Origin: a bacterium
Lineage (GTDB): Bacteria; Bacillota; Clostridia; Lachnospirales; Lachnospiraceae
Direction of reading: 5' to 3'
Assembly: GCA_023664305.1 (NCBI GenBank)
Contig: JAMPFT010000004.1
Coordinates: 62,001-126,000, forward strand
Length of the DNA: 64,000 nt
Shown in pieces: positions 20,699-49,580 of the stretch (positions are counted from its first letter, which is position 1; each line of letters starts with the position of its first letter). The position numbers and the translations under genes were made by a program. Below the pieces are notes generated by a model that worked only from the letters and a program-made list of their open reading frames with translations, was not told the DNA's origin and ran no database searches.

Positions 20699-21605
20699 CG
20701 TTTTTTCCTCCGATCAGATTCATAAAATAATTTTCCAGTCCTTCCTCGCGTTCGCGGATCTTGATCAGGACGCAGCCGTTTTGGGAGAGGAGCTCTACCA
20801 GCTCCGTGATTTCCAGAGAGCCGTAAATTTCTGCCTGATCATCTGATAACACGCGATATTCTATTCCTCGCGGTTCCAGCGCCGTGCAGAGAGAGCGGGT
20901 GTCGGATACGGTGACGCAAAGGCATTTCCGGCAGGAGGCTTCCAGTTCTTTGGCGCTGATTTCCTTCAGCATTTCCCCGCGGTCGATAAAGCCGTAATGA
21001 GTGGCCAGGCGGGAGAGCTCGTCCAGGATGTGGCTGGAGATCAGAAGGGTGATGCCGTGTTCCCGATTCAGCTTCAGGAGAAGCTCCCGGATCTCGATAA
21101 TTCCCTGGGGGTCCAGACCGTTGGCGGGTTCGTCCAGGACCAAAAAGTCCGGATTGCCGGCCAGAGCTACGGCAATGCCCAGCCGCTGGCGCATGCCCAG
21201 AGAGAAATTCTTCGCCTTCTTTTTGCCGGTGTCCTCCAGTCCCACCAGCTTCAAAAGCTGAGGGACGGAGTCAAAGGAGGGCAGCCCCAGGATGCGGTAT
21301 TGTTCCTTTAAATTGTCTTCTGCCGTCATATCCAGATAGATGGAGGGAGTCTCCACCACAGCGCCCATACGTTTCCTGCCTTTGATGATTTCCGGTTCTG
21401 AGAAGGGTATGCCAAAGAGCGAGTATTCTCCGCGGGTAGGAGTCTGCAGGCCGCAGATCAGGCGGATCAGGGTCGTTTTCCCCGCGCCGTTCTTCCCCAC
21501 AAAGCCGTAGATAGCGCCTTTTGGGACATGCATGGAGATATCATGCAGGGCCGTGAAGCTGCCGTACTTTTTTTGAAGTGCGGATGTAGTCAGTACATAT
21601 TCCAT
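20691..21605 (-). CDS. ABC transporter ATP-binding protein (BcrA-like)
   Basis: A 304-residue ATPase: Walker A GKNGAGKTT, Q-loop region, signature NFSLGMRQRLGIAVAL, Walker B DFLVLDEPANGLDPQG, and switch His in LLISSHILDEL. The roughly 80-residue C-terminal extension (CVTVSDTRSLCTALEPRGIE) is typical of bacitracin-resistance-type ATPases. The start is ATG 21605 with GGAGG close upstream, not the upstream frame extension to 21653. The 245-bp gap before it carries three direct repeats (21753-21784) that are a probable response-regulator site. Confidence 0.92.
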   Translation of the reverse strand: MEYVLTTSALQKKYGSFTALHDISMHVPKGAIYGFVGKNGAGKTTLIRLICGLQTPTRGEYSLFGIPFSEPEIIKGRKRMGAVVETPSIYLDMTAEDNLKEQYRILGLPSFDSVPQLLKLVGLEDTGKKKAKNFSLGMRQRLGIAVALAGNPDFLVLDEPANGLDPQGIIEIRELLLKLNREHGITLLISSHILDELSRLATHYGFIDRGEMLKEISAKELEASCRKCLCVTVSDTRSLCTALEPRGIEYRVLSDDQAEIYGSLEITELVELLSQNGCVLIKIREREEGLENYFMNLIGGKNDE

Positions 21606-21752
21606 TGTAACCTCCGTTTCTGCCTGTGCCCGGATCCCGGGCACGGTACACATAATCGGGACAGTAGAATTTTCGCGCGCAGGAAACTCTGCCGTCGATG
21701 GTGTTTGAACCGATTTCGCGGAACCTTTCTCACATCAGTATCGCAGAAAACA

Positions 21753-21784
21753 GTAAAGAAAGCGGTTAAGAAAAGGGTTAAGAA
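21753..21784. promoter_or_regulatory. Three direct repeats, probable response-regulator operator
   Basis: GTAAAGAA (21753), GTTAAGAA (21765) and GTTAAGAA (21777), written on the plus strand, recur every 12 bp. They lie between the response regulator gene and the ABC transporter it should control. OmpR-family dimers bind such tandem half sites. Confidence 0.6.
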
Positions 21785-21850
21785 ACAGGAAAGATTTCAA
21801 TAATAACATATGTTTTTAAACAGATCCGCCGGCGGGGCGAAGCCCGGCGG

Positions 21851-22513
21851 TTACATCGGATTCAGGCGGAAACCGATCCCCCAGACGGACTCGATGCAGT
21901 CCTCTCCGCCTGCCTCTTTTATTTTTTTCCGCAGATTGCTGATATGGATTTTGAGGGAGCTTTCGGTGCAGTCGGGGGTGTCCGCGCTGATATCCTCCAG
22001 CAGGGCGGATTTTGAGACGGGACGGGCAGGATTCTGCATCAGCTTTTTTAACAGGGCGTATTCCGTCCGGGTCAGGTGTATCGGCCTGTCCCGGACGAGA
22101 AGCTCCCGGGTGTCGGTGTTAAGGACAAGCTCCCCCGCGGTGAGAATGGGGGAGACGGGCTGTCCGCCGCGGCGCAGCTGTACCGTGATCCGTGCCAAAA
22201 GCTCCCGGATCTCGAAGGGCTTTGTCAGATAATCCGCAGCGCCCTCCAGAAGAACCTTTACCTTATCGTCTGTCTCGGCTTTTGCGCTGACCACGATGAC
22301 GGGGATATTTTTTATATGGGGAAGCAGCTGCTCCCCGGACAGCCCCGGCAGCATCAAATCCAGAAGGATCAGATCGGGGCGGTTCTTTTCAAACAGCAGC
22401 AGCGCCTCGGTGCCCGACCAGGCCCGAAGTACCCGGTATCCCTCCGCCTTTAGGCTTTCCGCGAGCAGATCTCCGATATAGGCGTCATCTTCAACGATTG
22501 CAATTGTTTTCAT
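21851..22513 (-). CDS. OmpR-family response regulator
   Basis: A 220-residue regulator. The receiver domain has the acidic pair in AIVEDDAYIG, the phosphoacceptor Asp in DLILLDLMLPGLSG, Thr/Ser-region VVSAKAETDDK, and Lys in DYLTKPFEIREL. The DNA-binding winged helix ends TESSLKIHISNLRKKIKEAG. ATG 22513 has GAGGAC upstream, and the frame extending to 22597 has no site. The order regulator, ATPase, permease, kinase differs from the usual regulator-kinase-ATPase-permease of Bce systems. It is divergent from the GH31 gene. Confidence 0.9.
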   Translation of the reverse strand: MKTIAIVEDDAYIGDLLAESLKAEGYRVLRAWSGTEALLLFEKNRPDLILLDLMLPGLSGEQLLPHIKNIPVIVVSAKAETDDKVKVLLEGAADYLTKPFEIRELLARITVQLRRGGQPVSPILTAGELVLNTDTRELLVRDRPIHLTRTEYALLKKLMQNPARPVSKSALLEDISADTPDCTESSLKIHISNLRKKIKEAGGEDCIESVWGIGFRLNPM

Positions 22514-22613
22514 GAAAGTCCTCGTTTCTGTTTTCGGCGTCACGAAGGGACGCTTTGTGTTCTTTAAGATCATATAATAAATCAGGCCTTTTTTCAACGC
22601 CCAAAAGTTTCTC

Positions 22614-22664
22614 TTGCGGTAAGCAGGGACATAGGGTATAATTAATTAAATCAATTAATTAAAT
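22614..22664 (+). promoter_or_regulatory. Promoter and repeat operator of the sulfoglycolysis-type operon
   Basis: TTGCGG (22614-22619), 17 bp, TATAAT (22637-22642), followed at once by two copies of ATTAATTAAAT at 22641 and 22654 (13-bp period, also readable as inverted AATTAATT blocks). The site covers the transcription start and is a good candidate for binding of the ROK repressor encoded at the far end of the operon. Confidence 0.65.
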
Positions 22665-22680
22665 AGAAAGGGGGAACGGT

Positions 22681-24666
22681 ATGGGGGCAGTATTTGATAT
22701 CGGCCGGTTTGCGCGTATAGGGCTGGAAATCGGTTCCGGGGAAAACCGTTTTACCATGAAGCGGGGAAGCTTTTCCTACAGAAAGAAAGAGGGCCGGTAT
22801 CGGCGGCTTGCGCTCCTGGAAAAGCTTGAGGCGGAGGGCGGATATGATTTGATTTACAGCGGCTTTGGCGCGAAGCCGCTCCGTCTTTCGGTGAGAATCG
22901 GCGAAAACCGGCTGAAGGTGTTCTGGCAGGGCGATGCCCCGGAGGGTGTAAACCGGTTCCGGCTCTCTTTTCCCGCAGATGAAAGCGAGCATTTCTACGG
23001 CTGCGGCGAGACCTATTCGAAGCTGGATCTGAAGGGAGAACTGGTGCGGATCTGGGTGGCGGAGCATCAGAACACGGGCCGGATCTCCGGAAAGATCATC
23101 CGGGAGAAGCTGTTGGGCAGGAATCCGGACAGAACGCTTCCCTTTCGAAAATATGAATCCTATTACGCCCAGCCTACTTTTGTTTCGAGCAGCCGGTATT
23201 TTGTGCATGTGGAGACGGACGCTTATTCGGAGTTTGATTTCAGAAGGCCGGACAGGATTACCCTGAATCTGCAGGAGCCGCCGTGCTTTACCGTTGGCTG
23301 GGGGGACAGCTTTGAGGAGGTGTCCGAAAATCTGTCGGCGCTTCTGGGACGGCCCAGGGCGCTGCCGGACTGGATTTACGACGGCGGGATCCTGGCGGTA
23401 CAGGAGGGCGCAGACGCTGTGGAGCGCAAGCTGAAAAAGGCGTTTGAGGCGGGCGCAGCGGTGAACGGCGTCTGGTGCCAGGACTGGTGCGGATGCAGGA
23501 GAACGGGCTTCGGCTACCAGGTTATGTGGAACTGGCGCTTCGATGAGACGCTGTATCCCGATCTGCCGGAGAAGATTCGAAAGTGGCGGGAAAGAGGAGT
23601 GCGCTTCCTGGGATATATCAATCCTTTTCTTGCCATCGAGAAGGAGCTTTACCGGGAAGCATCCGGGAAAGGCTACTGCGTCAAAGACCGGGCGGGGAAG
23701 GATTATCTGGTGACGATCACCACCTTCCCGGCGGCCATGATAGACCTCACCAACCCGGCGGCTTACGAGTGGTACAAGGGCCTGATCAGGGAAAATATGA
23801 TCGGCGTCGGCATGAGCGGCTGGATGGCGGATTTCGGGGAATATCTCCCGGTGGACTGCGTGCTTTACAGCGGCGCGGATCCGGAGGTAGTCCACAATAC
23901 CTGGCCCGCGTTGTGGGCGAAGCTGAACCGAGAGGCTATCGCGGAATGCGGTATGGAAGAGGAGATTTTCTTCTTCACCCGGGCGGGACACACGGGGACA
24001 GTTGCTCATTCGGATATGATGTGGACGGGAGACCAGCATGTGGACTGGTCGGTGGACGACGGGCTGCCCTCCGTGATCCCGGCGACGCTATCCTTAGCCA
24101 TGAGCGGCTTTTGCATCACGCATTCGGACGTGGGAGGGTATACCACAATCATGCATATGCGCCGTGGCAGGGAGCTTTTGCTGCGTTGGGAGGAGATGAA
24201 CGCGTTTTCGCCGCTGTTTCGCAGCCACGAGGGAAATCAGCCGGTCAACAACGTGCAGTTTGACGGCGACGGGGAGCTGCTGGAGCAGCTGGCGCGCTGC
24301 ACCGGGCTGCATGCGAGGTTGAAGCCGTATCTGAAAAAGTGTGAGAAGGAAGCCCGGGAGAGGGGGATCCCGGTGATCAGGCCGCTGTTTTATCATTACG
24401 ATGAAGAGGCGCTGTATACCGAGAAAACGGAATATCTGCTGGGACGGGATATCCTTGTGGCTCCGGTGCTGAAGGAGGGCAGGGAGGGACGCATCTGCAT
24501 CCTGCCGGAGGACAACTGGGTACACCTTTTCACCAGGGAAGAGTACGGCGGCGGGCGGTATGTGGTTCCGGCGCCGGTTGGAAGGCCGCCGGTGTTCGTG
24601 CGCAAGGCGAGCGAGGATTATGAGGAGTTGATAAGTGTGCAAAGATTTTCTAAGCCCGCAAAGTGA
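22681..24666 (+). CDS. GH31 alpha-glycosidase, sulfoquinovosidase (YihQ/SftG) type
   Basis: A 661-residue family 31 glycoside hydrolase. The nucleophile is D384 in WMADFGEYLP and the acid/base D451 in TGDQHVDWSVDDGLP, both in the exact contexts known from E. coli YihQ. A central QDWCGCRRTGFGYQVMWNW segment lines the sugar pocket. In YihQ the sulfonate is held by Gln288, Arg301 and Trp304. By spacing these are Q267, Q280 and W283 here, so the Arg is replaced by Gln. The neighbours (GPH symporter, transaldolase, YihU-like dehydrogenase, TauE/SafE exporter) point to release of sulfoquinovose from its glycosides; the substitution means another alpha-glycoside is possible. The protein has no signal peptide. 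The last ten residues (SVQRFSKPAK) and the stop come from a family B repeat and are shared with the GH3 enzyme at 61720. Confidence 0.85.
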   Translation: MGAVFDIGRFARIGLEIGSGENRFTMKRGSFSYRKKEGRYRRLALLEKLEAEGGYDLIYSGFGAKPLRLSVRIGENRLKVFWQGDAPEGVNRFRLSFPADESEHFYGCGETYSKLDLKGELVRIWVAEHQNTGRISGKIIREKLLGRNPDRTLPFRKYESYYAQPTFVSSSRYFVHVETDAYSEFDFRRPDRITLNLQEPPCFTVGWGDSFEEVSENLSALLGRPRALPDWIYDGGILAVQEGADAVERKLKKAFEAGAAVNGVWCQDWCGCRRTGFGYQVMWNWRFDETLYPDLPEKIRKWRERGVRFLGYINPFLAIEKELYREASGKGYCVKDRAGKDYLVTITTFPAAMIDLTNPAAYEWYKGLIRENMIGVGMSGWMADFGEYLPVDCVLYSGADPEVVHNTWPALWAKLNREAIAECGMEEEIFFFTRAGHTGTVAHSDMMWTGDQHVDWSVDDGLPSVIPATLSLAMSGFCITHSDVGGYTTIMHMRRGRELLLRWEEMNAFSPLFRSHEGNQPVNNVQFDGDGELLEQLARCTGLHARLKPYLKKCEKEARERGIPVIRPLFYHYDEEALYTEKTEYLLGRDILVAPVLKEGREGRICILPEDNWVHLFTREEYGGGRYVVPAPVGRPPVFVRKASEDYEELISVQRFSKPAK

Positions 24667-24870
24667 GCGGACTAAGAAAATCTAAATTGCACAAGGCGAA
24701 CAAGTTCGCCTTGAAGAATGCCAAGAGGGGGCGTAGCCCACCTCTTTGAGGGAGCGTAGCCCACCTCTTTGAGGGAGCGTAGCCCACCTCTTTGAGGGAG
24801 CGCAGCCCACCTCTTTGAGCGGGCGTTCTTCCGGGTTTGCATCAATTGTTTATGCCGCCGCAGGCGGCGG
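24635..24870. repeat. Family B hairpin mosaic, copy 1
   Basis: Modules in order: outer hairpin GTGCAAAGATTTTCT / AGAAAATCT-AAATTGCAC with apical stem CCGC-loop-GCGG; hairpin AAGGCGAAC-AA-GTTCGCCTT; stem GAAGAATGCC / GGGCGTTCTTC that encloses the 23-bp tandem array; and hairpin GCCGCC-GCA-GGCGGC ending just before the ribosome site of the symporter. The first module overlaps the GH31 stop codon. Confidence 0.85.
24723..24814. repeat. 23-bp tandem repeat, four units
   Basis: Four units with the core GCGTAGCCCACCTCTTTG, the last with GCGCAGCCC. They sit in the loop of the GAAGAATGCC/GGGCGTTCTTC stem of the family B element. A related seven-unit array is at 44978-45136. Confidence 0.92.
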
Positions 24871-24881
24871 AAAGGCATGGA

Positions 24882-26369
24882 ATGAAAATGGATAAACAGG
24901 AAAAGAGAGAAAAAAGTATGTGGCCGCGATGCGCTTACGGCATGGCGGATATCTACGGAGGTGGCGCTTTTGTCATCATTGGCACGTTTTTCACGGTGTT
25001 TCTGACAAAGTCTTTGGGAATGTCCACGGCGCTGGCGGGGACGATTCCTCTGATCGGGAAGGTCTGGGACGCGGTTACGGATCCGCTCATGGGTAATATC
25101 TGCGACCGCACCAGTTCACGGTTCGGGGCAAAGCGCTTCTATATTCTGGTCGGAAGCATCGTCTCGGCAGTGACCTTTGTGCTGATGTGGGTGGTTTTTC
25201 CCGGCAGCACCACGGCGGGCCAGTATCTTTTTTACATGCTGATGTACATGCTGTTTTCCACGGGCTTCACGATTGTGATGGTGCCCTATAACGCGCTGCT
25301 GCCGGATATGGTGGAGGATTACACGGTGCGCAGTAAGTTTTCCGGCGTGCGGATGATTTTTTCCTCCTTCGGCGCGATTCTTGCGGGGCTGATTCCCACG
25401 CTGCTCATCAAGGACAATACCGACGCCTCGGCGTACATAACCGTCGCGCTGATTTTCGGCGTCATCTTTTTCGCGGTTGTTCTGCTGACCTTTTTCGGCA
25501 CCTGGGAGAGGCAGAAGGAGGTCGTCAAGATCGGCTTTGCCCAAAGCTTTGTGCAGTCCCTGACCGTGTATAAGAGCCGCTCTTTCCGGCTGTTTATCGC
25601 CATCTTTCTCTTCGGCCAGGGGGCGGCGGACTTTGTCACGGGGCTGGCGGTCTATTATGTGGACGATGTGCTGAATGCCTACGGCGGAGGGCGGTTCACC
25701 TATCTGATGGCGGTGATCCTGCTGTCCCAGTTTGTGGGAACCATTCTGTTTACCCCGATCATGGCGAAGACCTCCAAGCGTTTTCCGATTCTGTTAGGCT
25801 TCCCGGTCCGGATCGCGGCGACTTTGGCTATGCTTTTGTTCTCCCACGAGGGCGCGAATTTTACGGTGATTCTGGCGCTGACCTTCGTGATCGGTCTGGG
25901 CATGGCGGGTTCCTCCACAAGTATTTACGCGATTCTGGCGGATATGGCGGATGTGGACGAGTTGATCACCTCCATCAACCGTCCCGGCACCTGCTCCGCT
26001 ATGGCGACCTTTGTGAGAAAGATCGCCGGAGGCTTATCCAGCGCGATCATCGGCGTCCTGCTTGCTTTGGCGGGATACGATGAGGTCATCGCGGCGGCGG
26101 GCGGCAGACAGAGCGCGGCGACGCAGCGGGGCGTGGCTTACATCTATATCTTTGTGCCGATCCTTCTGATGATTCTGACGCTGGTTTTCACGGTGCTTTT
26201 CCCCATCAACGAGAAGGAATTTGGGATCATTAAGCGCGAGATTGCCAGAAGAAAGGGCGAGGATACAAGCGTAGCCGCTCCGGAGGAGATCGCGGTCTGC
26301 GAGAAGGTGACGGGATATTCCTATGACAGGCTCTGGAACAGGGAAAATGCGTTGAAGCTAAAAGTGTGA
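24882..26369 (+). CDS. GPH-family sugar:cation symporter (MelB/YihO-YihP type)
   Basis: A 495-residue, 12-span transporter of the glycoside-pentoside-hexuronide:cation family. Typical parts: SMWPRCAYGMADIYGGGAF at span 1, KVWDAVTDPLMGNICDRTSS in the first cytosolic loop (the cation-site D-x3-D region), FGAKRFYILVGS, and MVPYNALLPDMVEDY. Sulfoquinovose operons commonly carry transporters of this family (YihO, YihP), so uptake of sulfoquinovose or its glycoside is inferred. ATG 24882 is preceded by GGAAAGG at normal spacing; the longer open frame from 24837 begins inside the repeat. The leader is the last hairpin of the family B element. Confidence 0.88.
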   Translation: MKMDKQEKREKSMWPRCAYGMADIYGGGAFVIIGTFFTVFLTKSLGMSTALAGTIPLIGKVWDAVTDPLMGNICDRTSSRFGAKRFYILVGSIVSAVTFVLMWVVFPGSTTAGQYLFYMLMYMLFSTGFTIVMVPYNALLPDMVEDYTVRSKFSGVRMIFSSFGAILAGLIPTLLIKDNTDASAYITVALIFGVIFFAVVLLTFFGTWERQKEVVKIGFAQSFVQSLTVYKSRSFRLFIAIFLFGQGAADFVTGLAVYYVDDVLNAYGGGRFTYLMAVILLSQFVGTILFTPIMAKTSKRFPILLGFPVRIAATLAMLLFSHEGANFTVILALTFVIGLGMAGSSTSIYAILADMADVDELITSINRPGTCSAMATFVRKIAGGLSSAIIGVLLALAGYDEVIAAAGGRQSAATQRGVAYIYIFVPILLMILTLVFTVLFPINEKEFGIIKREIARRKGEDTSVAAPEEIAVCEKVTGYSYDRLWNRENALKLKV

Positions 26370-26449
26370 GGAATTAGTAACGGGATATTTGCGGAGGCGA
26401 CATGGGGTGTAAGTATAAAAATCAGGGATTTTCATACTATTGAATTTGA

Positions 26450-26466
26450 GCCTGCCGTTGGCAGGC
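26450..26466. other. Short hairpin between symporter and transaldolase
   Basis: GCCTGCC-GTT-GGCAGGC, a perfect 7-bp stem. The rest of the 26370-26554 gap shows no gene. It may be a processing or partial termination site within the operon. Confidence 0.5.
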
Positions 26467-26554
26467 ATGGGTATAAGTGCGAAATTAAATTTTCACAGGC
26501 GAGTTTGTGCTCACGCTCAAATCCTCAGATTACGGAAAGGTATGGTGAAATAAG

Positions 26555-27241
26555 ATGAAATATTTTCTTGACAGTGCAAAATTGGATGAAATCAGGCTTG
26601 CCTACGAGACCTTTGGAATCGATGGCGTCACCACGAATCCGCGGCATATTATGCTCAGCGGAAAGCCCTTTTTAAAGGCGGTGACAGACATTGCGCAATG
26701 GCTGAAGGAGGAGGGTCTGGAGGGATATGAGAAATTCCCAGTATCGGTGGAGATCAATCCCCATGTGGAAGAGGCCGGGGAGATGGTAGAGCAGGCGAAG
26801 CGGATCGCGGCGATCAGTCCTTCCTTTGTCATCAAGATTCCGGCTACCGAGGCGGGAGTCACCGCCGCGAGAAGGCTGGAGAAAATGGGAATCCGCACGA
26901 ATGTGACGCTGGTCTTTTCCCCGGCACAGGCGATTCTGCCCGCGAAGAACGGCTCGAAGTTTGTTTCTCCCTTCATCGGCTGGAAGGAGGCAAACGGCGA
27001 GGACTGCAGAGAGTATATCCGCAATATTGTGGAGATCTATAAAAATTACGGGTGGTATGGAAAGACGGAAATCATCTGCGCCGCGGTGCGCACGCCCAAG
27101 CAGTTTGTGGACTGCGCCCTGGCGGGAGCGGATATTGTCACAGCGGGGCTTGACGTATATCGGGACAGCATGAAGCATGCCTATACCACGCAGGGAATCG
27201 GCACGTTTATCGACGCCTGGGACCACACGGCGGCGGAGTGA
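26555..27241 (+). CDS. Transaldolase-family enzyme, probable sulfofructose transaldolase (SftT-like)
   Basis: A 228-residue class I aldolase of the small transaldolase/fructose-6-phosphate aldolase group. It starts MKYFLDSAKLDEIRLAYETF with GIDGVTTNPRHI, and has the Schiff-base lysine K94 in FVIKIPATEAG, then TNVTLVFSPAQAI and the closing TAGLDVYRDSMKHA segment. In the sulfo-transaldolase route of gut and soil Firmicutes, SftT splits 6-deoxy-6-sulfofructose and transfers the dihydroxyacetone unit to glyceraldehyde 3-phosphate, giving fructose 6-phosphate and sulfolactaldehyde. The operon context supports this. On sequence alone, a simple fructose-6-phosphate aldolase or other transaldolase would be equally possible. 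Confidence 0.8.
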   Translation: MKYFLDSAKLDEIRLAYETFGIDGVTTNPRHIMLSGKPFLKAVTDIAQWLKEEGLEGYEKFPVSVEINPHVEEAGEMVEQAKRIAAISPSFVIKIPATEAGVTAARRLEKMGIRTNVTLVFSPAQAILPAKNGSKFVSPFIGWKEANGEDCREYIRNIVEIYKNYGWYGKTEIICAAVRTPKQFVDCALAGADIVTAGLDVYRDSMKHAYTTQGIGTFIDAWDHTAAE

Positions 27242-27280
27242 CGGGGAATGTGACTGGAAGTGTTGAAGGAGGGTATAAAG

Positions 27281-28147
27281 GTGAAAATAGGGTTTATCGG
27301 TCTCGGCATCATGGGGGAATCCATGAGCGAGAATATTATCAAAAAGCATGATGACAGTGTCTATGTGTTTGATTTTGTGGAGGAGAAGGTAAAGCTTTTG
27401 GAATCAAAGGGCGGAATCGCCTGTAAAAGCTCCCGGGAGGTGGCGGAGCACGCGGATGTGATCATCTCCATGGTGCCCCGGTCGGAGCATTCCAGAAGCG
27501 TTTATCGGGAGATTCTGCCCGTGCTGGACGCTTCAAAGATCTGTATCGATATGAGTACCATCGACCCGAGCGTTTCCGTGGAGATCGCGGAGGAGGTAAA
27601 GCGGACGGGAGCGCAGTTTCTGGACGCGCCCGTGGTAAAGAGCAAGCCGGCCGCCATAGCGGGAAAGCTGGGGATCTATGTGGGCGGTGACGAGGAGACT
27701 TATAAAAAAATCCGGCCCATTCTGCTGTATATGGGCGAAAACGTGATCCGTATGGGAGACAACGGCAAGGGGCTTGTCATGAAAATCTGTCATAACGCGC
27801 TGGTGTCTCAGATTCAGAACGGCGTGAATGAGACGTCCGTGCTGGCGGCGGCAAACGGCATCGATATTATGACCTTTGCGGAGGCGATTTCTTACGGCGG
27901 CGGCCAGAACTTTTATCTGGATTCCAAAAAGGATCCGATTTCACGCCAGGACTATACTACGGCCTTTTCCGTGGAAAACATGGCGAAGGATGTGAACATC
28001 TGTATGCGGCTTGCAGAGGAATGCGGAGTCAGTATGCCGGGAGAGGAAAACGCAAAGCGCGTCTATGACGCGGCGCTGGAGGCCGGTTTCGGGAAAGAGG
28101 ATTTCTGCGCGACGGTAAAAGTGTGCAAAGATTTTCTAAGCCAGTAA
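27281..28147 (+). CDS. Beta-hydroxyacid dehydrogenase, probable sulfolactaldehyde reductase (YihU-like)
   Basis: A 288-residue NAD(P)-dependent enzyme of the 3-hydroxyisobutyrate dehydrogenase family. It begins MKIGFIGLGIMGESM (dinucleotide site), has FLDAPVVKSKPAAIAGKLGI as the substrate loop, and the catalytic lysine K168 with N172 in GLVMKICHNALV. In E. coli YihU the loop residue Arg123 contacts the sulfonate; the equivalent here is K120, still basic. With the transaldolase it would reduce sulfolactaldehyde to dihydroxypropanesulfonate (DHPS), the fermentative end of sulfoglycolysis. The start is GTG 27281 with AAGGAGGG seven bases upstream. The last residues (VCKDFLSQ) and the stop are encoded by a family B repeat. 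Confidence 0.82.
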   Translation: MKIGFIGLGIMGESMSENIIKKHDDSVYVFDFVEEKVKLLESKGGIACKSSREVAEHADVIISMVPRSEHSRSVYREILPVLDASKICIDMSTIDPSVSVEIAEEVKRTGAQFLDAPVVKSKPAAIAGKLGIYVGGDEETYKKIRPILLYMGENVIRMGDNGKGLVMKICHNALVSQIQNGVNETSVLAAANGIDIMTFAEAISYGGGQNFYLDSKKDPISRQDYTTAFSVENMAKDVNICMRLAEECGVSMPGEENAKRVYDAALEAGFGKEDFCATVKVCKDFLSQ

Positions 28148-28256
28148 AGTACACTGGCTAAGAAAATCTAAGTTGCACACAGAAGAATCGCAAGAGAAGC
28201 GATTCTTCCCGGAACCGAATGGTTCCGTGGGATTGTTTGTGCCGCCGCAGGCGGCA
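28121..28256. repeat. Family B hairpin mosaic, copy 2
   Basis: Outer hairpin GTGTGCAAAGATTTTCT / AGAAAATCTAAGTTGCACAC with apical stem AGCCAGT / ACTGGCT around AAAGTAC; then GAAGAATCGC-loop-GCGATTCTTC with no tandem array; then GGAACC-GAAT-GGTTCC; then GCCGCC-GCA-GGCGGC. A second partial start of the element (GTGTGCAAAGAAGTTCTAAG) follows at 28267-28286, just before the TauE gene. Confidence 0.85.
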
Positions 28257-28302
28257 TGACGGGAAGTGTGCAAAGAAGTTCTAAGGCAGTAAAGGATGCG
28301 TT

Positions 28303-29220
28303 ATGAGGAAGGCAGGATTTTACATCATCATTCTTCTCGCCAACATCATACAGGGAATCACGGGATTTGCGGGCACGATCTTAGCCATGCCTGCCAGCGT
28401 CCTGCTGGTGGGAGAGGGCGTCGCAAGGCCGGTGCTGAATGTGCTGGGGCTTTTGTCCGGCGTTTACGTCTTTGCGGGGAACAGGAAATCCGTAGATCGG
28501 AGAGAGCTTGGGCGGATTCTGCCGGTGATGACGGCGGGGATTCTGGCGGGGCTGGGGATCCGGGCGCTTCTGGCGGGAAAGGAGAAGATGCTGTACCTGG
28601 CGCTGGGCGTCTTTGTACTTGTGCTGGCGGCGCGGGGACTGTACCGCCAGCTTGCAGGGGCGGAGAGACGGCGGATGCAGAGAGGGGCAGCCGGAGGGGA
28701 AACATCCGCGCAGGAACCGTCCGCACAGGAGGCGGAGAGAAGCGCAGCCCGCAAAGGTGAGAAAGCAGCGCCCGCAGAGGAACCGTCCGCACAGGAGGCG
28801 GAGAGAAACGCAGCCCGCAAAGGTGAGAAAGCAGCGTCCGCGCAGAGGAACGTCGGCCTCGGCAGGCGGGCGGGAGACCTCGTCCTGCTTCTGGGAGCTG
28901 GCGTCGCCCACGGAATTTTCGTGTCGGGCGGGCCGCTGCTGATCGGTTACCTGACGGGACGGCTCCGGGATAAGACGGTGTTTCGCGCGACGATCTCCAC
29001 GGTGTGGATTGTTCTCAACAGTCTGATTCTTTTGGGAGACATTCGGGAGGGACTGTGGAATGCGGACTGTCTGCGCACGCTGGCTGTGGCTGTGCCGTTT
29101 TTGACGGGCGGTATGCTGATCGGCGGCAGGCTGTACAGGATTATGAGCCAGAGGACATTTCTGATTTTGACTTATGTGCTGCTGGCGTTGTCGGGAGGTT
29201 TGCTGCTTTTCAAAGTGTGA
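28303..29220 (+). CDS. TauE/SafE (TSUP) family sulfonate exporter
   Basis: A 305-residue membrane protein with two clusters of spans, the TSUP layout. The N-terminal half starts IIILLANIIQGITGFAGTI and the second half has GAGVAHGIFVSGGPLLIGYL, the paired glycine-rich repeats of the family. TauE/SafE proteins export sulfite or organosulfonates and are usual in sulfoglycolysis operons, where DHPS or sulfolactate must leave the cell. The central cytosolic loop is expanded by a 22-residue tandem duplication (SAQEAERSAARKGEKAAPAE and SAQEAERNAARKGEKAASAQ). ATG 28303 has AAAGGA six bases upstream. The isomerase gene follows in 22 bp. Confidence 0.85.
   Translation: MRKAGFYIIILLANIIQGITGFAGTILAMPASVLLVGEGVARPVLNVLGLLSGVYVFAGNRKSVDRRELGRILPVMTAGILAGLGIRALLAGKEKMLYLALGVFVLVLAARGLYRQLAGAERRRMQRGAAGGETSAQEPSAQEAERSAARKGEKAAPAEEPSAQEAERNAARKGEKAASAQRNVGLGRRAGDLVLLLGAGVAHGIFVSGGPLLIGYLTGRLRDKTVFRATISTVWIVLNSLILLGDIREGLWNADCLRTLAVAVPFLTGGMLIGGRLYRIMSQRTFLILTYVLLALSGGLLLFKV
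28714..28845 (+). repeat. In-frame 66-bp tandem duplication inside the TauE gene
   Basis: Two nearly identical 66-bp units begin at 28714 and 28780 (GAACCGTCCGCACAGGAGGC). They keep the reading frame and lengthen the hydrophilic loop. The near-identity suggests a recent event or ongoing repeat-number change. Confidence 0.9.
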
Positions 29221-29242
29221 GAAGAAGGGAGAACGATAAGTC

Positions 29243-30583
29243 ATGAAAGAGTTTCAGGTTGTTTATCTGCCGATCGGGGTGCCAACCTTTCATTTGGAGA
29301 CCGCCGGACAGGAGTTTGAAAAATCTGCCGCGCTGCTGCGAAGCATCGACAGGAATGTAAAGGTGCCGGAGGAGATGCTGCTGTCAACGGATCTGCTGAG
29401 AAAATTTACGGAGGGACTTTCCCCGGATTTGATCGTGCTGCAGAATGTGACCTTTGCAAATGCGGCTTATGCGGCGGAGGTGCTCTCACGGTTTGACTGC
29501 CCGATTCTGCTCTGGACCCTGCGGGAGCCGGCGGCGGACGGGGGAAGGCTTCGATTAAATTCCCTTACCGGCGCGTATTCCGCGGCAAACACGATCCGGG
29601 CGTTTCGAAAGGAACCCTCCACCTATGTGTTCGGAGGGCCGGAGGAAGAAAAGACGGCGGCGAAGGTGAAGGCTGCGGTGAGGGCCGCCGAACTGAAGGC
29701 AAAGCTAAGACAGCTGAAGCTGGCGGCGGTGGGTCATACCCCTCAGGGGTTCGGCTTTGGACGCGCGACGGACACGGACATGCTTAAGACCTTCGGCGTG
29801 AGGCTGGAGTCCGTTGAGGCCAGGGAGCTGATCGAGCGGGCGCTTGTCTACCGGGAAGACGAAGTAGAGGAATATTTGAAAGATGCGTCGGCGCGTATGC
29901 GGGGGCTGGAGATGACGCCGGAGAAGAACCGTACCGATTTTGCAAGACTGTACAGGGCATACCGGGAGTTTGTGTCGGAGCATCAGATCGGGGCGTTGGC
30001 TTCCCGCTGCTGGCCGGACTTCTTCACAGCCTTCGGCACACCGGTCTGCGCGGTGCTGGCCATGCTGAACGATTTGGGAGTGGCCGCGAGCTGTGAGGCG
30101 GACGCCTACGGCGCACTGTCTATGTATATGGGCATGGAACTGTCCGATGCCCCGGTCTTTTTCGGAGATCCCGTGGCTATGGACGAGGAGGAGAACACGG
30201 TCACCTTCTGGCACTGCGGCACCGCCGCCTGCTCTCTGGCGAGGGAGGATACGGGCGCGCAGACGGGAGTACACTGCAACCGCAGGCTCGGCCCTACCTT
30301 GGAGTTCGGGTGTCGTCCGGCAAAAAGCGTGACGGTTTTCCGCGTGGGACAGAAGCCGGACGGGAGCTTCCGCTTTTTCCTGGCGGAGGGAGAGGCTTTG
30401 GATAAACCGAAGCAGTACAGCGGCACATCCGTGGTAGTAAAGACAAAAAATCCTTCCGGGGCGCTGGTGGAGCAGAGTGTGCTGGACGGCTGGGAGCCTC
30501 ATTTTGCGGTGATTTACGGAAATGTGTCAGAGGAACTGGAAATATTGGGGAATATGTTGAACGTAGAGGTGTGCAGATATTGA
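29243..30583 (+). CDS. FucI/AraA-family isomerase, probable sulfoquinovose isomerase (SftI-like)
   Basis: A 446-residue protein of the L-fucose/L-arabinose isomerase superfamily. The N-terminal Rossmann-type domains (LSPDLIVLQNVTFANAAYAA, CPILLWTLREP) are followed by GHTPQGFGFG and the metal-site region, with E285 in SCEADAYGALSMYM and H324 in VTFWHCGTAACS, the usual metal ligands. In transaldolase-type sulfoglycolysis the aldose-ketose isomerase acting on sulfoquinovose belongs to this broad family. The position between the exporter and the repressor supports that role. Specificity for another sugar cannot be excluded from sequence. Confidence 0.78.
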   Translation: MKEFQVVYLPIGVPTFHLETAGQEFEKSAALLRSIDRNVKVPEEMLLSTDLLRKFTEGLSPDLIVLQNVTFANAAYAAEVLSRFDCPILLWTLREPAADGGRLRLNSLTGAYSAANTIRAFRKEPSTYVFGGPEEEKTAAKVKAAVRAAELKAKLRQLKLAAVGHTPQGFGFGRATDTDMLKTFGVRLESVEARELIERALVYREDEVEEYLKDASARMRGLEMTPEKNRTDFARLYRAYREFVSEHQIGALASRCWPDFFTAFGTPVCAVLAMLNDLGVAASCEADAYGALSMYMGMELSDAPVFFGDPVAMDEEENTVTFWHCGTAACSLAREDTGAQTGVHCNRRLGPTLEFGCRPAKSVTVFRVGQKPDGSFRFFLAEGEALDKPKQYSGTSVVVKTKNPSGALVEQSVLDGWEPHFAVIYGNVSEELEILGNMLNVEVCRY

Positions 30584-30802
30584 TCTGCTGCGGAACGGAC
30601 TCAGGCTGAGCTGCGGGGCAGAGAAAGAAGCCGGGTATGCGGCAGTTCCTGTGGCGGAACGGAGATTGCGTCATGAAAGGGCAGGGAAAAGAGAGAATCG
30701 CCGCTCTGCCGGGGAGGACTGTGTTTGCAGGGAAGGAAGGGTAGAACACGGATTCTGCCCTTTTGCGGAGGAGGATTGCATTTGCATGGGAAGGAGAGCG
30801 GA

Positions 30803-31939
30803 ATGAGAAACGCCGGTATGAATATGGTTCAGGTGAAAAAGAGAAACCGTTCTTCCGTCTTAAACTGTATCAATCAGAGGGGCCCCGTTTCCAGAAAGGA
30901 TATCGCGGATATCACGGGACTGACTCCGGCGGCGGTCACGCTGATCTGCGGGGAATTGATGGAACAGGGACTTTTGCGGGAGCTGGGGACGGATACGCTG
31001 TCAACGGGCGCGGGCCGCAGAAAGGTGCTGGTGGATATAAATTACGACTGTTATTATATTCTCACCGTGAACATTGAGTCGGCGGATACCGTCCTTACCG
31101 TCTCCAATATGCGGGGGGACTTTCTGGAACGGGAAACGGTTCCCACCGCGCGGCAGGAGGAGCCGGAGGTCTTTTTGGATAGGGTAGCGGAGCACTGTGA
31201 CAGACTGCGGAACAGACGTCCGCAGCTGGAGAAGCGTCTGGCGGGTGTCAGCGTGGCCGTGCCGGGAGTGGTTGACCGGGAGAGGGGCGTCAGCGTCCAT
31301 GCCTACGGCGTGTGGGACCGTCAGGTGGCGGTCTGCGATATCCTGGCCGAAAAGCTGAAGCTGAAGGTCTGGATCGAAAACAATGTGAATGCTCTTGCCA
31401 TGGCGGAGCTTTTGTTCGGGATGGGAAGGGCGTATGACAATCTGCTGGTGATCAAGTGGGGCCCCGGGGTCGGCAGCGCTATTGTCATCGACAGCCAGCT
31501 CTACGAGGGCCGTCACGGAAAGGCGGCAGAGCTGGGGCATTATATCGTGGAGAGGGAGGGGCGGCTTTGCAGCTGCGGCAGAAGGGGCTGCCTGGAGACG
31601 AAGGTGTCTTATCGGGCGCTGTCCGCGGAGCAGCCTTTTGCCATAGAGGACTTTGGAAAGGTATACCGGGAGGCGTCTGCCGCCGGGAAGGCCGGGAAAT
31701 TTGAGGAGGCCATCGATCTGTTTGCCAGAACGGTGGTTAATTCCATGACGATCCTGGCGCCGAACCGTGTGGTGCTGTTCGGAAGCCTGTTTCGGGACGG
31801 CACGGTCAGGCGGAGACTGATCGAGGACTGCAAAAAGTACGATTCCCGCTACGACGAGGGCAGGATTCTCTACTCCACACTGGCGGATCGGGAAAGCTAT
31901 ATCGGTCCGGTGGCGCTGTTTGTACATTCCATATTGTAA
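30803..31939 (+). CDS. ROK family transcriptional repressor
   Basis: A 378-residue ROK repressor. The N-terminal winged helix (RNRSSVLNCINQRGPVSRKD, ADITGLTPAAVTLICGELME) precedes a sugar-kinase-like ROK domain with VAVPGVVDRERG, IENNVNALAMAELL, and the zinc motif CSCGRRGCLE. The conserved kinase-type ligand residues suggest it senses a sugar, by context sulfoquinovose or sulfofructose, and represses the operon. Its probable operator is the ATTAATTAAAT repeat at 22641-22664. ATG 30803 follows AAGGAGAGCGG; the frame extends further back to 30725 without a site. The 220-bp gap before it has no clear gene. The operon ends in a terminator at 31954. Confidence 0.88.
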   Translation: MRNAGMNMVQVKKRNRSSVLNCINQRGPVSRKDIADITGLTPAAVTLICGELMEQGLLRELGTDTLSTGAGRRKVLVDINYDCYYILTVNIESADTVLTVSNMRGDFLERETVPTARQEEPEVFLDRVAEHCDRLRNRRPQLEKRLAGVSVAVPGVVDRERGVSVHAYGVWDRQVAVCDILAEKLKLKVWIENNVNALAMAELLFGMGRAYDNLLVIKWGPGVGSAIVIDSQLYEGRHGKAAELGHYIVEREGRLCSCGRRGCLETKVSYRALSAEQPFAIEDFGKVYREASAAGKAGKFEEAIDLFARTVVNSMTILAPNRVVLFGSLFRDGTVRRRLIEDCKKYDSRYDEGRILYSTLADRESYIGPVALFVHSIL

Positions 31940-31953
31940 GAAAAAAAGTTCCC

Positions 31954-31988
31954 GGCGGGCGCACAGGATGCGCCCGCCTTCTTGTTTC
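31954..31988 (+). terminator. Terminator of the sulfoglycolysis-type operon
   Basis: GGCGGGCGCA (31954-31963) and TGCGCCCGCC (31969-31978) form a 10-bp stem with a 5-base loop, followed by TTCTTGTTT. Confidence 0.85.
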
Positions 31989-32010
31989 CTGGCGTTTTTT
32001 TTGGTATACT
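31982..32010 (+). promoter_or_regulatory. Promoter of the acyltransferase gene
   Basis: TTGTTT (31982-31987), 17 bp, TATACT (32005-32010) with an extended-10 TGG. The -35 box is inside the T-rich tail of the upstream terminator. Confidence 0.65.
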
Positions 32011-32048
32011 CGTAAGCAGGATTTATTTTGACGGGCGGGAGGCGGAAT

Positions 32049-33200
32049 ATGGCTGAGAAGAAATGTATGGCAAATCTGGAATTGCTCAGGTGTGTGGCCA
32101 TGATGATGGTGATCGTGCTGCATTATCTCGGAAAGAGCGGATTATTGCCGGAGCTGGCGGGAGAAGAGATGGGAGTCAGGGGAACTGCGGCCTGGCTGCT
32201 GGAAGCCTTTTGCATCGTGGCGGTGAACGTTTATATGCTGATCAGCGGCTATTTCTTATGTACCTCGCATTTTAAGCCCAGCCGCCTGCTCGGGCTGCTC
32301 GGTCAGATCTGGCTGTATTCTGTGGTATTTGGACTGATTGGCGCCTGGACGGGGGTAATAGCGGAGACGCCGGTGGACACGCACTATTTTTTGACGTTGC
32401 TCTTTCCGGTTTCAATGGAGCATTATTGGTTTATGACGGCTTATGTTTTCCTGTATCTGTTACTGCCTTTTGTGGGCATGGCAGTGAAAAGAATGACAAA
32501 GGGCCAGCTGCAGCTTGCTCTCGGGGGGCTGTTTGCCGCTTTCTGCGTTTTAAAGAGCGTTCTTCCCGTGCGGTTTGAGACAGACGGGAAGGGGTACGAC
32601 TGTCTGTGGTATCTGTGTGTGTTTGTAGCGGCGGCCTATCTGCGCAGATTCGGCATTTCCTTTTTGGAAAAGAGGAAAAGAGGGCTTTTGCTCTATGTGG
32701 GGGCGGTCCTGCTGATTTTCGGGGGAACCATGCTCCTACGGCTTGTCTGGCTGAAGACGGGCCGACTGGAGAGAATGCTGGGAATGTGCATGGAATATAA
32801 CCATGTCCTGCCGTTTTTGGCGGCGCTGGGACTGTTCTGCGCTTTTGCGGGACTGCGGGTGGAAGGTAAAATAGCGACTGTTATAAATAAGATAGCGCCT
32901 CATACGCTGGGCGTTTATCTGCTGCATGAAAATCTGGGACTGCGCTACAGCTGGCAGAAATGGCTGGGGGCGGAGGCGGTGAAGGCCGCGGGAGACCGGG
33001 GTGCAGCCGGGATCGTCCTGCTTTTGGCAGGAACCCTGTCCGCGGTGGCGGTTGTGTTTTTCTGCGGAGTTGCGGTAGATCTGGCAAGAAACCGGGCGGC
33101 CCGGGGAATCAGCCGTTTTCTCGGCAGATTCCGGGGCTGGCGCAGGCTGACGGAGGCGCTTGCCCGGGCTGACGGAGCTTTCGGGGAGTCGCAGGGATAA
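32049..33200 (+). CDS. Acyltransferase-3 family membrane protein
   Basis: A 383-residue protein with about ten membrane spans. It begins with the family pattern NLELLRCVAMMMVIVLHYLG (R and catalytic H) followed by VNVYMLISGYFLC and HYWFMTAYVFLYLLLPFVG; the C-terminal part has HTLGVYLLHENLGLRY. Acyltransferase-3 proteins O-acylate extracellular glycans or lipids using cytoplasmic acyl-CoA. ATG 32049 follows GGGAGGCGGA. It is followed within about 150 bp by a polytopic GT-C-like protein, so the two may modify the same surface glycan (inference). Confidence 0.85.
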   Translation: MAEKKCMANLELLRCVAMMMVIVLHYLGKSGLLPELAGEEMGVRGTAAWLLEAFCIVAVNVYMLISGYFLCTSHFKPSRLLGLLGQIWLYSVVFGLIGAWTGVIAETPVDTHYFLTLLFPVSMEHYWFMTAYVFLYLLLPFVGMAVKRMTKGQLQLALGGLFAAFCVLKSVLPVRFETDGKGYDCLWYLCVFVAAAYLRRFGISFLEKRKRGLLLYVGAVLLIFGGTMLLRLVWLKTGRLERMLGMCMEYNHVLPFLAALGLFCAFAGLRVEGKIATVINKIAPHTLGVYLLHENLGLRYSWQKWLGAEAVKAAGDRGAAGIVLLLAGTLSAVAVVFFCGVAVDLARNRAARGISRFLGRFRGWRRLTEALARADGAFGESQG

Positions 33201-33350
33201 GGGAAGGACATGCATTGTAAGACGGGCAGGGAAGTCTGGGCGGCATCGGAAGTGTCAGGGGCGGCTGCAGGAAGAAGAGGAAAGACCGGCAGGGCGTTTG
33301 CGGCGCGGTCTGCTGCAGGGAGCGGAGAAGCTGAGAGGAAGGAACAAAAA

Positions 33351-35171
33351 ATGACGGAGAAACAGGGAAAAGAAGAAAAAAGCATCAGAGGCGGAATGAG
33401 TCTGCGGGCGACGCTGGAAATCTTGTCTGCGGCGATTCTGGCTCTTTATCCGCTGCGTCATGTGAACTGGGGACTGGATCTGTGGGATGTGGGTTATAAT
33501 TATGCGAATTTTAAGTATATGGGGACGGAGCACATGGATCCCATGTGGCTTTTTTCCACTTATCTTTCCACGGCGGTGGGACATCTTATCACAAAGCTGC
33601 CCGGAGCGGGCGGGTTGGTCGGGATGAATTTTTTCACTTCCCTTTTTGCAAGTATATTAGCGTTGCTGGGATATTGGTTCTGTGTGAAAAAGCTGCGTAT
33701 GCCGTTTGGGATCGCTTTCCTGGGCGAGATGCTGGCGCTGAGTCTTTGCTGGTGTCCCGGAGCCGTGCTGTATAATTATCTGACCTATCTGCTCTTTTTG
33801 GGAGGCGTGATTCTGCTGTATCTGGGGCTTACCGGTGAGAAAAAGGGGTATCTTGCGGCGGCGGGGGTGTGCCTGGGCGTCAATGTACTGACGCGCTTTT
33901 CCAATCTGCCGGAGATGGGAATGATTCTGGCAGTGTGGGCCTATGACCTGATTGTCTGGCAGGAGGAGGGACGGAAGAAAAAAGGATTTTTGCCTGTGAC
34001 GCTCCGCCATACGGGCTGGTGTGTCCTGGGATACGGGGGAGCGCTGGCGGCGTCAGGCGTCTATTTGCAGGCGCGTTACGGGCTGGGAGCGTATTTTGCG
34101 GGGATAGGGCGTCTGTTTGCCATGACGGATACTGCAACGGACTACAAGGCGACCGCCATGATCCGTTCGGTGGTAGATTATTATGTGAAGAATCTGTACT
34201 GGGCAGTGCGGATCGGCGTGATTTTGTCTGCAGGGCTTTTGGCGTTTGCGGTACTGGGATTTTTGCGTGAAATACTGGCCGGAAAGAAGAAAATCCTTCG
34301 GTGCCTTTCCTGTGCCGTGCATCTGTTCTCTGCGGCTCTTGGCGCTGCCATGCTCATCTGGCTGTACCGGAGGAAGTTCTGTTCGCTGCAGTTTAGCGAT
34401 TATAACGCCATGCTGCTCCCCGGAATTTTGTTTTTGATGCTGACGATGCTGATTGCAGCCGTCCGGATTTTCAGCCGAGGAAGCGCAAGAGAAGAGAAGC
34501 TGATCAGCGGGATGGTGATTTTGGTGATCCTGCTTTCATCCCTCGGAAGCAATACCGGGGTCTTCTCCAGCCTGAACAATCTGTTTGTGGCGGCGCCGTA
34601 CACCCTGTGGGAAAGCTGGCGTTTTGTGCGGAGAGCGCGGGAAACAAAAATAGCGCATGTTACGCTGAATCCTTTTCCGGCAAAGTGTATTTTGACGGCC
34701 TTTTTGCTGATGTGCTTTTTCCAGTTTGGCGCTTTCGGAGCCGTCTTCTGTTTTGCGGAGGCAACCGGGATACAGGACATCAGCGCGTCGGTGGAAAATA
34801 ACGAGATTCTGCGGAATGTGCGGATGTCGGAGGAAAAAGCGCGGTGGATCACGGAGCTTAGCGGCTATGTGGAGGAAAACGGTCTTCAGGGGCAGGAGGT
34901 CATTCTGTACGGCTATATACCGGCACTGTCCTATTATTTGCAGATGCCGTCCGCCTTTAATCCCTGGAGTGACCTTGACTCCTACAGTCAGGAGGTCATG
35001 GAGGAGAGTTTGAAAGCCCTGCATGATGAAACACCTGTTATTATATTGGAAAGCAGCTGCGCGGCTTATCCGGAGCAGGCAGACGGTAAGCTGCTTTTGC
35101 TTTTTGAATTTATGCGGGAGCACGGATATAAGCAGACCTTCCGCAACGAAAAATTTGTGGTTTACCGGTGA
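33351..35171 (+). CDS. Polytopic membrane protein, GT-C glycosyltransferase-like
   Basis: A 606-residue protein with at least twelve hydrophobic segments. After the first span comes an acidic motif in NWGLDLWDVGYNYANF, in the position where GT-C enzymes (PMT/ArnT type) carry catalytic Asp residues. The last 150 residues form a soluble domain (RWITELSGYVEENGLQGQEV, VILYGYIPALSYYLQ), again as in GT-C proteins. No closer family is recognised. The frame runs open from 33210, but ATG 33351 has GAGAGGAAGGA at good spacing and starts a normal hydrophilic leader. Likely uses a polyprenyl-phosphate sugar for surface glycosylation. Confidence 0.55.
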   Translation: MTEKQGKEEKSIRGGMSLRATLEILSAAILALYPLRHVNWGLDLWDVGYNYANFKYMGTEHMDPMWLFSTYLSTAVGHLITKLPGAGGLVGMNFFTSLFASILALLGYWFCVKKLRMPFGIAFLGEMLALSLCWCPGAVLYNYLTYLLFLGGVILLYLGLTGEKKGYLAAAGVCLGVNVLTRFSNLPEMGMILAVWAYDLIVWQEEGRKKKGFLPVTLRHTGWCVLGYGGALAASGVYLQARYGLGAYFAGIGRLFAMTDTATDYKATAMIRSVVDYYVKNLYWAVRIGVILSAGLLAFAVLGFLREILAGKKKILRCLSCAVHLFSAALGAAMLIWLYRRKFCSLQFSDYNAMLLPGILFLMLTMLIAAVRIFSRGSAREEKLISGMVILVILLSSLGSNTGVFSSLNNLFVAAPYTLWESWRFVRRARETKIAHVTLNPFPAKCILTAFLLMCFFQFGAFGAVFCFAEATGIQDISASVENNEILRNVRMSEEKARWITELSGYVEENGLQGQEVILYGYIPALSYYLQMPSAFNPWSDLDSYSQEVMEESLKALHDETPVIILESSCAAYPEQADGKLLLLFEFMREHGYKQTFRNEKFVVYR

Positions 35172-49505: not shown

Positions 49506-49580
49506 TCTGTCCGAAGCAGAAACGGGACGCCATTTTCACCTTTCCGACACGCCGAAAATCCGATGTGACACATGTGTATA

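Follow-up and report, generated by a model that had tools for sequence, protein, structure and literature searches.

A Probable Sulfo-Transaldolase Operon in a Lachnospiraceae Genome with an Atypical, Glutamine-Type GH31 Glycosidase

What does a family 31 glycoside hydrolase (GH31) do at the head of an otherwise ordinary sulfoglycolytic operon when glutamine occupies the place of the arginine present in its solved relatives? The question is raised by seven genes in a 64,000-nucleotide stretch of a Lachnospiraceae genome (a 3.58-Mb draft, 94.6% complete; GenBank assembly GCA_023664305.1, contig JAMPFT010000004.1, positions 62,001 to 126,000 of the forward strand), which was analyzed as a whole and is called the window below, positions being counted from its first letter. 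We propose that these genes probably constitute a ROK-regulated sulfo-transaldolase (sulfo-TAL) operon of a known kind, whose GH31 frees sulfoquinovose (SQ) by way of a rebuilt pocket. The pathway is ordinary and had been well identified by an earlier note, made from the sequence alone; one enzyme, the GH31, is not ordinary, and it bears on how GH31 enzymes achieve specificity for sulfonated sugars. Green vegetables universally contain SQ, whose degradation to 2,3-dihydroxypropane-1-sulfonate (DHPS) feeds gut producers of hydrogen sulfide (PMC8397734).

The Operon and Its Core Enzymes

Seven genes with open frames follow one another on the + strand at 22681-31939, with an operator in front and a hairpin terminator behind, which bears out the co-directional set and the terminator described in the earlier note. 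The features are as follows (aa, amino acids).

22614..22642, + strand: putative promoter (-35 TTGCGG at 22614-22619, 17-nt spacer, -10 TATAAT at 22637-22642)
22642..22662, no strand: TTAATTAAATCAATTAATTAA, a palindrome and putative operator that shares the last base of the -10 box
22681..24666, + strand: GH31, 661 aa, glutamine-type (Q-type) relative of YihQ/SftG (NF007746, 769.7 bits, cut-off 553)
24882..26369, + strand: GPH-family symporter, 495 aa, likely importer of SQ or an SQ glycoside (26.9% to YihO)
26555..27241, + strand: small transaldolase, sulfofructose transaldolase (SF-TAL; 284 bits to 8bc3, 62% to BmSF-TAL)
27281..28147, + strand: protein of the beta-hydroxyacid dehydrogenase family (HIBADH-type), 288 aa, GTG start, likely 3-sulfolactaldehyde reductase (SftR)
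28303..29220, + strand: TauE/SafE exporter, 305 aa, likely DHPS exporter (SftE; family assignment)
29243..30583, + strand: PF02952 isomerase, 446 aa, likely sulfoquinovose isomerase (SftI/SqvD; PF02952; NF048012, 402 bits)
30803..31939, + strand: ROK-family repressor, 378 aa (family assignment by profile)
31954..31978, + strand: intrinsic terminator, 10-bp stem and T-rich tail

Judged by its sequence, the transaldolase is an SF-TAL. In a search of solved structures it scored 284 bits with BmSF-TAL (8bc3), the next protein reaching 151, and the two enzymes are 62% identical. The catalytic set D6, E66, K94, N116, and S138 is kept, as is the W-A-R sulfonate motif (W143, A177, R179); both are described for SF-TAL in section 3.4 of PMC11659671, and the placing of W, A, and R in the window enzyme comes from our own alignment. 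All of these residues are common to BmSF-TAL (8BC3, 8BC4), the difference between the two proteins being insertions of five residues (52-56) and of two residues near 168; the numbering of the Faecalicatena F1 enzyme in the same section (E66, K94, S138) implies that the first insertion is present there too. W-A-R is kept in 92 of 94 aligned transaldolase rows, with one row devoid of the last site and one, in the wrong frame, not counted. An ordinary fructose-6-phosphate aldolase (FSA) is ruled out: the score on TIGR00875 is 181 bits, short of the cut-off of 246, and W and A occupy the two diagnostic sites. The sole other TAL_FSA match in the genome carries Arg and Ser at the sites of Trp and Ala in the window transaldolase (aligned by eye).

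The sulfo-transaldolase route put forward in the earlier note is well supported, both by this SF-TAL with its W-A-R motif and by an isomerase and a reductase that match, in sequence and in context, those of a locus of C. symbiosum ATCC 14940 (L074); their kinship with the enzymes of C. symbiosum-type clusters is likewise well supported at the level of sequence. Identities with L074 are 84% for the transaldolase, 78% for the reductase, and 64% for the isomerase, and TauE, GH31, and ROK have matches there as well. L074 differs in that its GH31 keeps Arg301 and is 41% identical to the window's, that it contains a DUF4867 gene and no GPH match, and that its gene order is another. C. symbiosum is reported, at the level of the species rather than of strain ATCC 14940, to express the pathway on SQ (PMC8397734) and to reduce sulfolactaldehyde (SLA) to DHPS (PMC11489063). 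The sulfo-TAL (SFT) cluster known from C. symbiosum and Eubacterium rectale comprises sftG, sftA, sftT, sftR, sftE, and sftI; that of E. rectale was compared by its GH31 (6PNR), which keeps Arg301.

Gene content is conserved among relatives. A hundred related loci were fetched, 20 through the isomerase and 80 through the transaldolase (L057-L136, the best 80 of 334 relatives of the window enzyme, whose ratio of glutamine to arginine types is thus no census). Five pairs were the same contig taken twice; these duplicates were dropped from the resulting set of 95 loci and from the GH31-neighbor and palindrome counts, and kept in the count of 71 residue rows given below. Transaldolase, reductase, and isomerase occur together in 60 of the 95 loci, GH31 as well in 54, and all seven genes in the window's order in 20, so that the set goes beyond chance. 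The near relative L057, from a metagenome-assembled genome of Roseburia sp., has the same seven genes in the same order, with a DNA identity of 92-97% over four main aligned blocks. In a sample of 299 genomes of the family, an isomerase with at least 58% identity was found in 21 and a YihQ-like GH31 (E-value of at most 1e-80) in 21, both being present in 20 (Fisher p 6e-29); G205 has the isomerase alone and G075 the GH31 alone, and five more genomes match the isomerase at 27-30%.

From these assignments we infer every substrate, transport, export, and repressor site in the following scheme, as well as DHPS excretion. The GPH symporter would import SQ or an SQ glycoside, and the GH31 would release SQ through its rebuilt pocket, as a module able to replace the usual enzyme. 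The isomerase would convert SQ to 6-deoxy-6-sulfofructose, whose unsulfonated C3 half the transaldolase would pass to glyceraldehyde 3-phosphate, yielding SLA and fructose 6-phosphate, the latter bound for glycolysis. The reductase would turn SLA into DHPS and regenerate NAD+, TauE would export the DHPS, and the ROK protein would block the promoter at the TTAATTAA palindrome until the sugar appears.

A GH31 with Glutamine at the Sulfonate Site

The window GH31 falls in the same subfamily as YihQ (5AED), to which it is 46% identical, and it keeps the catalytic D405 and D472 of that enzyme together with Q262, Q288, W304, and Y508. This set, with K/E as the alternative to Q262/Q288, is the one expected of a GH31 sulfoquinovosidase. 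According to the work of Speciale and coworkers in 2016 and of Abayakoon and coworkers in 2018, YihQ reportedly grips the sulfonate by Arg301, Trp304, and, via water, Tyr508. In the window, codon 280, at the position of R301, is CAG (23518-23520) and encodes Gln, and residues 346-353 read ITTFPAAM (23716-23739), where the strand of the solved enzymes reads FGEF(Y/D)(C/G)GV. Compared with YihQ, E. rectale SftG (6PNR), the A. tumefaciens enzyme (5OHY), and 8R56, the last deposited merely as a family 31 hydrolase, the window enzyme thus has R301 replaced by Q, E369 by T, and strand 367-374 rebuilt, and it lies on the other side of one branch in the tree. An alignment slip is ruled out as the source of Gln280: there is no gap between residues 267 and 283, repeat alignments agree, and the codon was read directly. 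In YihQ these columns read Q-Q-R-W-Y and in the A. tumefaciens enzyme K-E-R-W-Y, the motifs of the literature. The label of YihQ-type GH31 used in the earlier note holds for the family, but not for the sulfonate Arg or for membership of the group of four solved enzymes; its statement that each gene fits needs correction for a GH31 with Gln280.

Of 71 GH31 rows, 49, including the window's, read QQQW..Y, 21, including YihQ and L074, read QQRW..Y, and one reads QQQW..F; Lys138, Glu159, His129, and His453 are invariant across the 49. We refer to the two forms as Q-type and R-type. Among 82 distinct YihQ-like rows, the 54 with Gln301 have Thr (53) or Val (one) at 369, and the 28 with Arg301 have Glu (27) or Ala (one), a distribution that suggests a pairing of Arg301 with Glu369. 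Strict coupling is weakened by L181, with Arg and Ala, and by L157, with Gln and Val. The 299 family genomes contain 24 GH31 matches (13 Q, 11 R), and 391 genomes of the class contain nine (four Q, two of them from another family, and five R); these samples are fairer for the Q:R ratio than loci found by way of the transaldolase. One genome of another family of the class (G406) carries neighboring Q-type genes on one contig (L180, L184), both with Phe at the Tyr508 position.

No characterized member of the Q-type branch was found among the solved sequences compared. The literature searched yielded no mention of the Gln form, although the founding papers lay outside that search, so this is no proof of absence. 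PMC13219744 treats YihQ enzymes as one monophyletic group, and its main text does not contain the words "residue" or "motif"; Q-type sequences may already stand unremarked in its tree. It also lists the YihQ of "Clostridium sp." (probably MSTE9) as a known sulfoquinovosidase; should that enzyme prove to be Q-type, a characterized member of the type already exists. The SftG motif of PMC8397734 was built from signature residues and may exclude Q-type enzymes. Surveys that demand the Arg could miss them, and surveys that accept any YihQ homolog give them a putative activity.

Weighing the Substrate of the Glycosidase

Several observations tell against a sulfo-TAL operon opened by an SQ-releasing GH31. 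The isomerase attains its 402 bits on the NCBIfam SftI model NF048012, its sole NCBIfam match, against a cut-off of 700, and the reductase attains 157.9 bits on the sulfolactaldehyde reductase model NF012005 against one of 348, so that neither is a called NCBIfam equivalog by these models. The reductase is 29% identical to YihU. The position of Arg301, the sulfonate-binding residue of YihQ, holds Gln280 in the window and Arg in all four solved YihQ-like sequences compared. A tree of the barrel with those columns omitted splits 58 Q rows from 33 R rows (91 rows, 77 of them different) by one branch, with a Shimodaira-Hasegawa-like approximate likelihood ratio test (SH-aLRT) support of 100, the window GH31 falling outside the group of YihQ, E. 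rectale SftG, A. tumefaciens, and 8R56 sequences, all R. On the trees of the core enzymes the Q and R labels cluster strongly (none of 500 shuffles came as low). On the isomerase tree, 37 rows of a 43-row group are Q and none is R, and a 19-row group has 14 R and one Q. SftX/SqvB (DUF4867) is absent from the window operon. Finally, SF-type transaldolases equally close to the window's (80-85%) stand in 13 loci of another cluster type.

As to the reductase, three further superfamily models give it a better score than NF012005 does, in each case below the model's own cut-off, and K120 of the reductase occupies the column of the Arg in the DVPVGR of YihU. The isomerase compared by sequence with solved structures gave no match at a useful E-value (best 0.12). 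The standing of the Q-type as a certain clade is weakened by a second tree, to which five sequences and, as outgroup, E. coli YicI were added and in which support for the Q/R branch falls from 100 to 89 and 52 of 54 Q rows group together at 99; the YicI branch is very long, which leaves the root unsure.

The tree split suggests a rather unlikely, though substantial, alternative, in which the core is sulfo-TAL and the Q-type GH31 cuts another alpha-glycoside, of a different sulfosugar or with an uncharged C6, SQ entering the cell free. R301 is replaced by Q together with E369 by T or V, strand 367-374 is rebuilt, and N-domain residues are invariant in the 49 Q rows, all of which speak for it; against this, the same 49 rows keep Q262, Q288, W304, both catalytic Asp, and Y508 (three further Q-type genes have Phe at 508), and the window GH31 is above the cut-off of the NCBIfam YihQ model. 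Both types occur in G066, G164, and G291, as if they had different jobs. Isomerases largely follow the GH31 type, and a search for DUF4867 detected it in all 18 R-type loci but missed it in 22 of the 46 Q-type loci (present in 24; p 1e-4; contig ends truncate some loci), which points the same way; yet the isomerase is present in 20 of 21 GH31-positive family genomes, and Q-type GH31 occurs in transaldolase and transketolase-type clusters alike. Because of that 20 of 21, and because one Q-type gene heads a transketolase/transaldolase (TK/TAL) cluster, the Q-type tracks sulfoglycolysis. Granted the pathway, we lean toward a sulfoquinovosidase with a rebuilt pocket over another glycosidase.

The core-enzyme trees bear on how often the GH31 type has changed. 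Changes of label number 5, 4, and 5 on the transaldolase, isomerase, and reductase trees, so the GH31 type was exchanged a few times; from the clustering of the label it follows that such exchange was rare and that isomerases largely go with the GH31 type. Free mixing of Q and R on these trees is weakened accordingly. L049 (Q) and L051 (R) are sisters with 98% support on the transaldolase tree and 100% on the isomerase tree, and are unresolved in the reductase tree. The core probably splits the same sugar in Q and R loci. A close GPH gene adjoins GH31 in 27 of 46 Q loci and in 0 of 18 R loci (p 7e-6; kin loci are not independent), and GH31 and GPH symporter therefore look like an exchangeable entry module. 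A bolder proposal, which we regard as rather unlikely, is that the Q-type is a second kind of GH31 sulfoglycosidase, one that recognizes its sulfonated sugar without the hallmark Arg by coupled changes in two pocket segments, and which as an exchangeable module, often with GPH, opens transaldolase and transketolase routes to a glycoside that the YihQ type does not serve.

In G164 (L172), a Q-type GH31 and a distant GPH head a cluster of an iron-type alcohol dehydrogenase (Fe-ADH), split transketolase, RpiB-like, two transaldolase-family, and EamA genes, which has a large part of the genes of the bifurcated pathway described in PMC11659671. In G234 and G075, Q-type genes lie in stretches without transaldolase, reductase, or close isomerase. 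Three Oscillospiraceae loci (L126, L128, L129) combine Q-type GH31 and transaldolase with a PF02952-like isomerase that is only 24-25% identical to the window's.

Other Sugars, Other End Products

Could the pathway itself run differently? Extensions exist in relatives (PMC11489063, PMC11659671), and the operon might be extended or bifurcated, with 3-hydroxypropane-1-sulfonate (3-HPS) formed via HpfG or isethionate via transketolase, DHPS then not being the end product. This is very improbable here: neither a split transketolase nor the DHPS dehydratase HpfG, nor any glycyl-radical enzyme, is among the eight + strand proteins scanned at 22681-33197 (the search for transketolase covered these proteins), and the sole glycyl-radical enzyme (PF02901) in the draft genome is ruled out as part of the operon by its location on another contig (C14). 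The Faecalicatena TK/TAL cluster of PMC11659671 is similar in its use of an SF transaldolase, and L172 shows a Q-type GH31 heading a similar cluster; the window operon differs from it in having no transketolase, RpiB-like, or Fe-ADH gene, and for Faecalicatena the paper names a homolog of the Arthrobacter NAD+-dependent SQase.

The sulfo-TAL reading also has to be set against the 13 loci that carry SF-type transaldolases in a different conserved cluster (L061:8611-20232 and 12 others: L060, L068, L069, L071, L073, L075-L079, L082, L088). The earlier note had asked whether the transaldolase clusters with another pathway; the answer is not clean, the transaldolases of this other putative cluster being as near (80-85%, W-A-R kept) as those of sulfo-TAL clusters. 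The genes are ROK, transaldolase, TIM-like, LarA-like, NMT1-type ABC transporter, DUF4838, NagB-like, and NagA, and no match to the SQ isomerase, GH31, or reductase was found in the 13 loci; the set is not full in every locus, contig ends truncating some, L082 has no ABC and DUF4838 matches, and L088 has another order. It is possible that this cluster encodes a route for C6-sulfonated or C6-sulfated N-acetylglucosamine, with NagA-like deacetylation, NagB-like deamination to a 6-sulfo-ketose, and a transaldolase split. Our literature searches found nothing on it, and it is perhaps more novel than the GH31 finding.

These neighbors of NagA and NagB-like genes hint at other C6-sulfo sugars and, with the altered GH31 pocket, raise the idea that the window pathway handles a C6 sulfate ester (e.g., glucose 6-sulfate glycosides) instead of the C6 sulfonate SQ. 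We give it little credence, as all three core enzymes (transaldolase, isomerase, and reductase) closely resemble their counterparts in the locus of C. symbiosum, a species reported to work on SQ (PMC8397734, PMC11489063), and as the transaldolase tree intermingles Q and R loci.

The Missing SftX Gene and Palindromic Elements

DUF4867 (SftX/SqvB) is a proposed mutarotase (PMC9594981, PMC11968277), usual beside the pathway genes though not defining. In the close relatives L058, L062, L063, and L065-L067 it lies between reductase and TauE, and its absence from the window means that the operon is not complete, as the earlier note had called it. A tblastn search for a remnant found none in the reductase-TauE gap, the best match in 20001-34000 having an E-value of 0.063 and lying elsewhere. 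The only DUF4867 match of the genome, on contig C22 next to genes for an FGGY kinase and a second PF02952 isomerase, is ruled out as part of the operon, being on another contig. Since 7 of the 20 seven-gene loci are also without DUF4867, the gene is probably not essential. The C22 locus (L053:4745-11101), with a LacI-type regulator, DUF5692, FGGY kinase, DUF4867, and the second PF02952 isomerase, is another aldose/ketose locus.

Two palindromic elements touch the operon.

24643..24683, no strand: mobile-looking palindrome that runs across the stop codon of the GH31 gene
28129..28169, no strand: second such element, across the stop codon of the reductase gene; close relatives carry DUF4867 in this gap

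The element, AGATTTTCTAAG..CTAAGAAAATCT, has a third copy at 63862-63902 and seven exact pattern matches in the genome; it looks like a small noncoding mobile element with GTGCAAA/TTTGCAC-like ends. The copy at 24643-24683 is absent from L057, whose GH31 gene ends differently. One might read the operon as decaying, given that elements at 24643 and 28129 have entered it, reaching into the 3' ends of two genes, and that the mutarotase-like gene is gone with no remnant in the gap by tblastn. Decay is most improbable, as the seven frames are open, the checked catalytic residues of transaldolase and GH31 are kept, and L057 retains all seven genes.

Regulation and Minor Observations

A promoter with an operator had been described in the earlier note. 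TATAAT and the palindrome are indeed present, but a consensus promoter scan reported nothing at 22614, and the candidate -35 box, TTGCGG, has 3/6 matches. The palindrome TTAATTAAATCAATTAATTAA has 0 matches in shuffles of the window, and the form TTAATTAAANNNNTTAATTAA has a perfect copy in the window, touching the -10 box; TATAAT overlaps the palindrome in several relatives (judged by eye). At no more than 4 mismatches it precedes 30 of 45 Q-type GH31 genes (18 perfect copies; mononucleotide shuffles expect 1.8) and is absent upstream of the other 15, and less exact forms stand ahead of the transaldolase gene in loci of the C. symbiosum type (by eye). The ROK protein is the likely binder of the palindrome, and because its gene sits in an operon with this conserved site, autoregulation is the likely reading. 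The operon contains intergenic gaps of 215, 185, 155, and 219 nt, and the palindromic elements have entered two of these; a single transcript of the seven genes is putative given these four large gaps. Rfam gave no match anywhere in the window.

Repeats are found within and beyond the operon. Arrays of a 23-bp unit (..TAGCCCACCTC..) occupy 24725-24826 (4.4 copies, adjoining the palindromic element) and 44977-45135 (7 copies), and two arrays that resemble each other, of about two copies each, consist of a 110-bp repeat at 49311-49509 and a 108-bp repeat at 61369-61572. The TauE gene contains a 66-bp tandem repeat (22 codons, 2.2 copies) at 28705-28851, which encodes a charged loop and at which the DNA alignment with L057 breaks.

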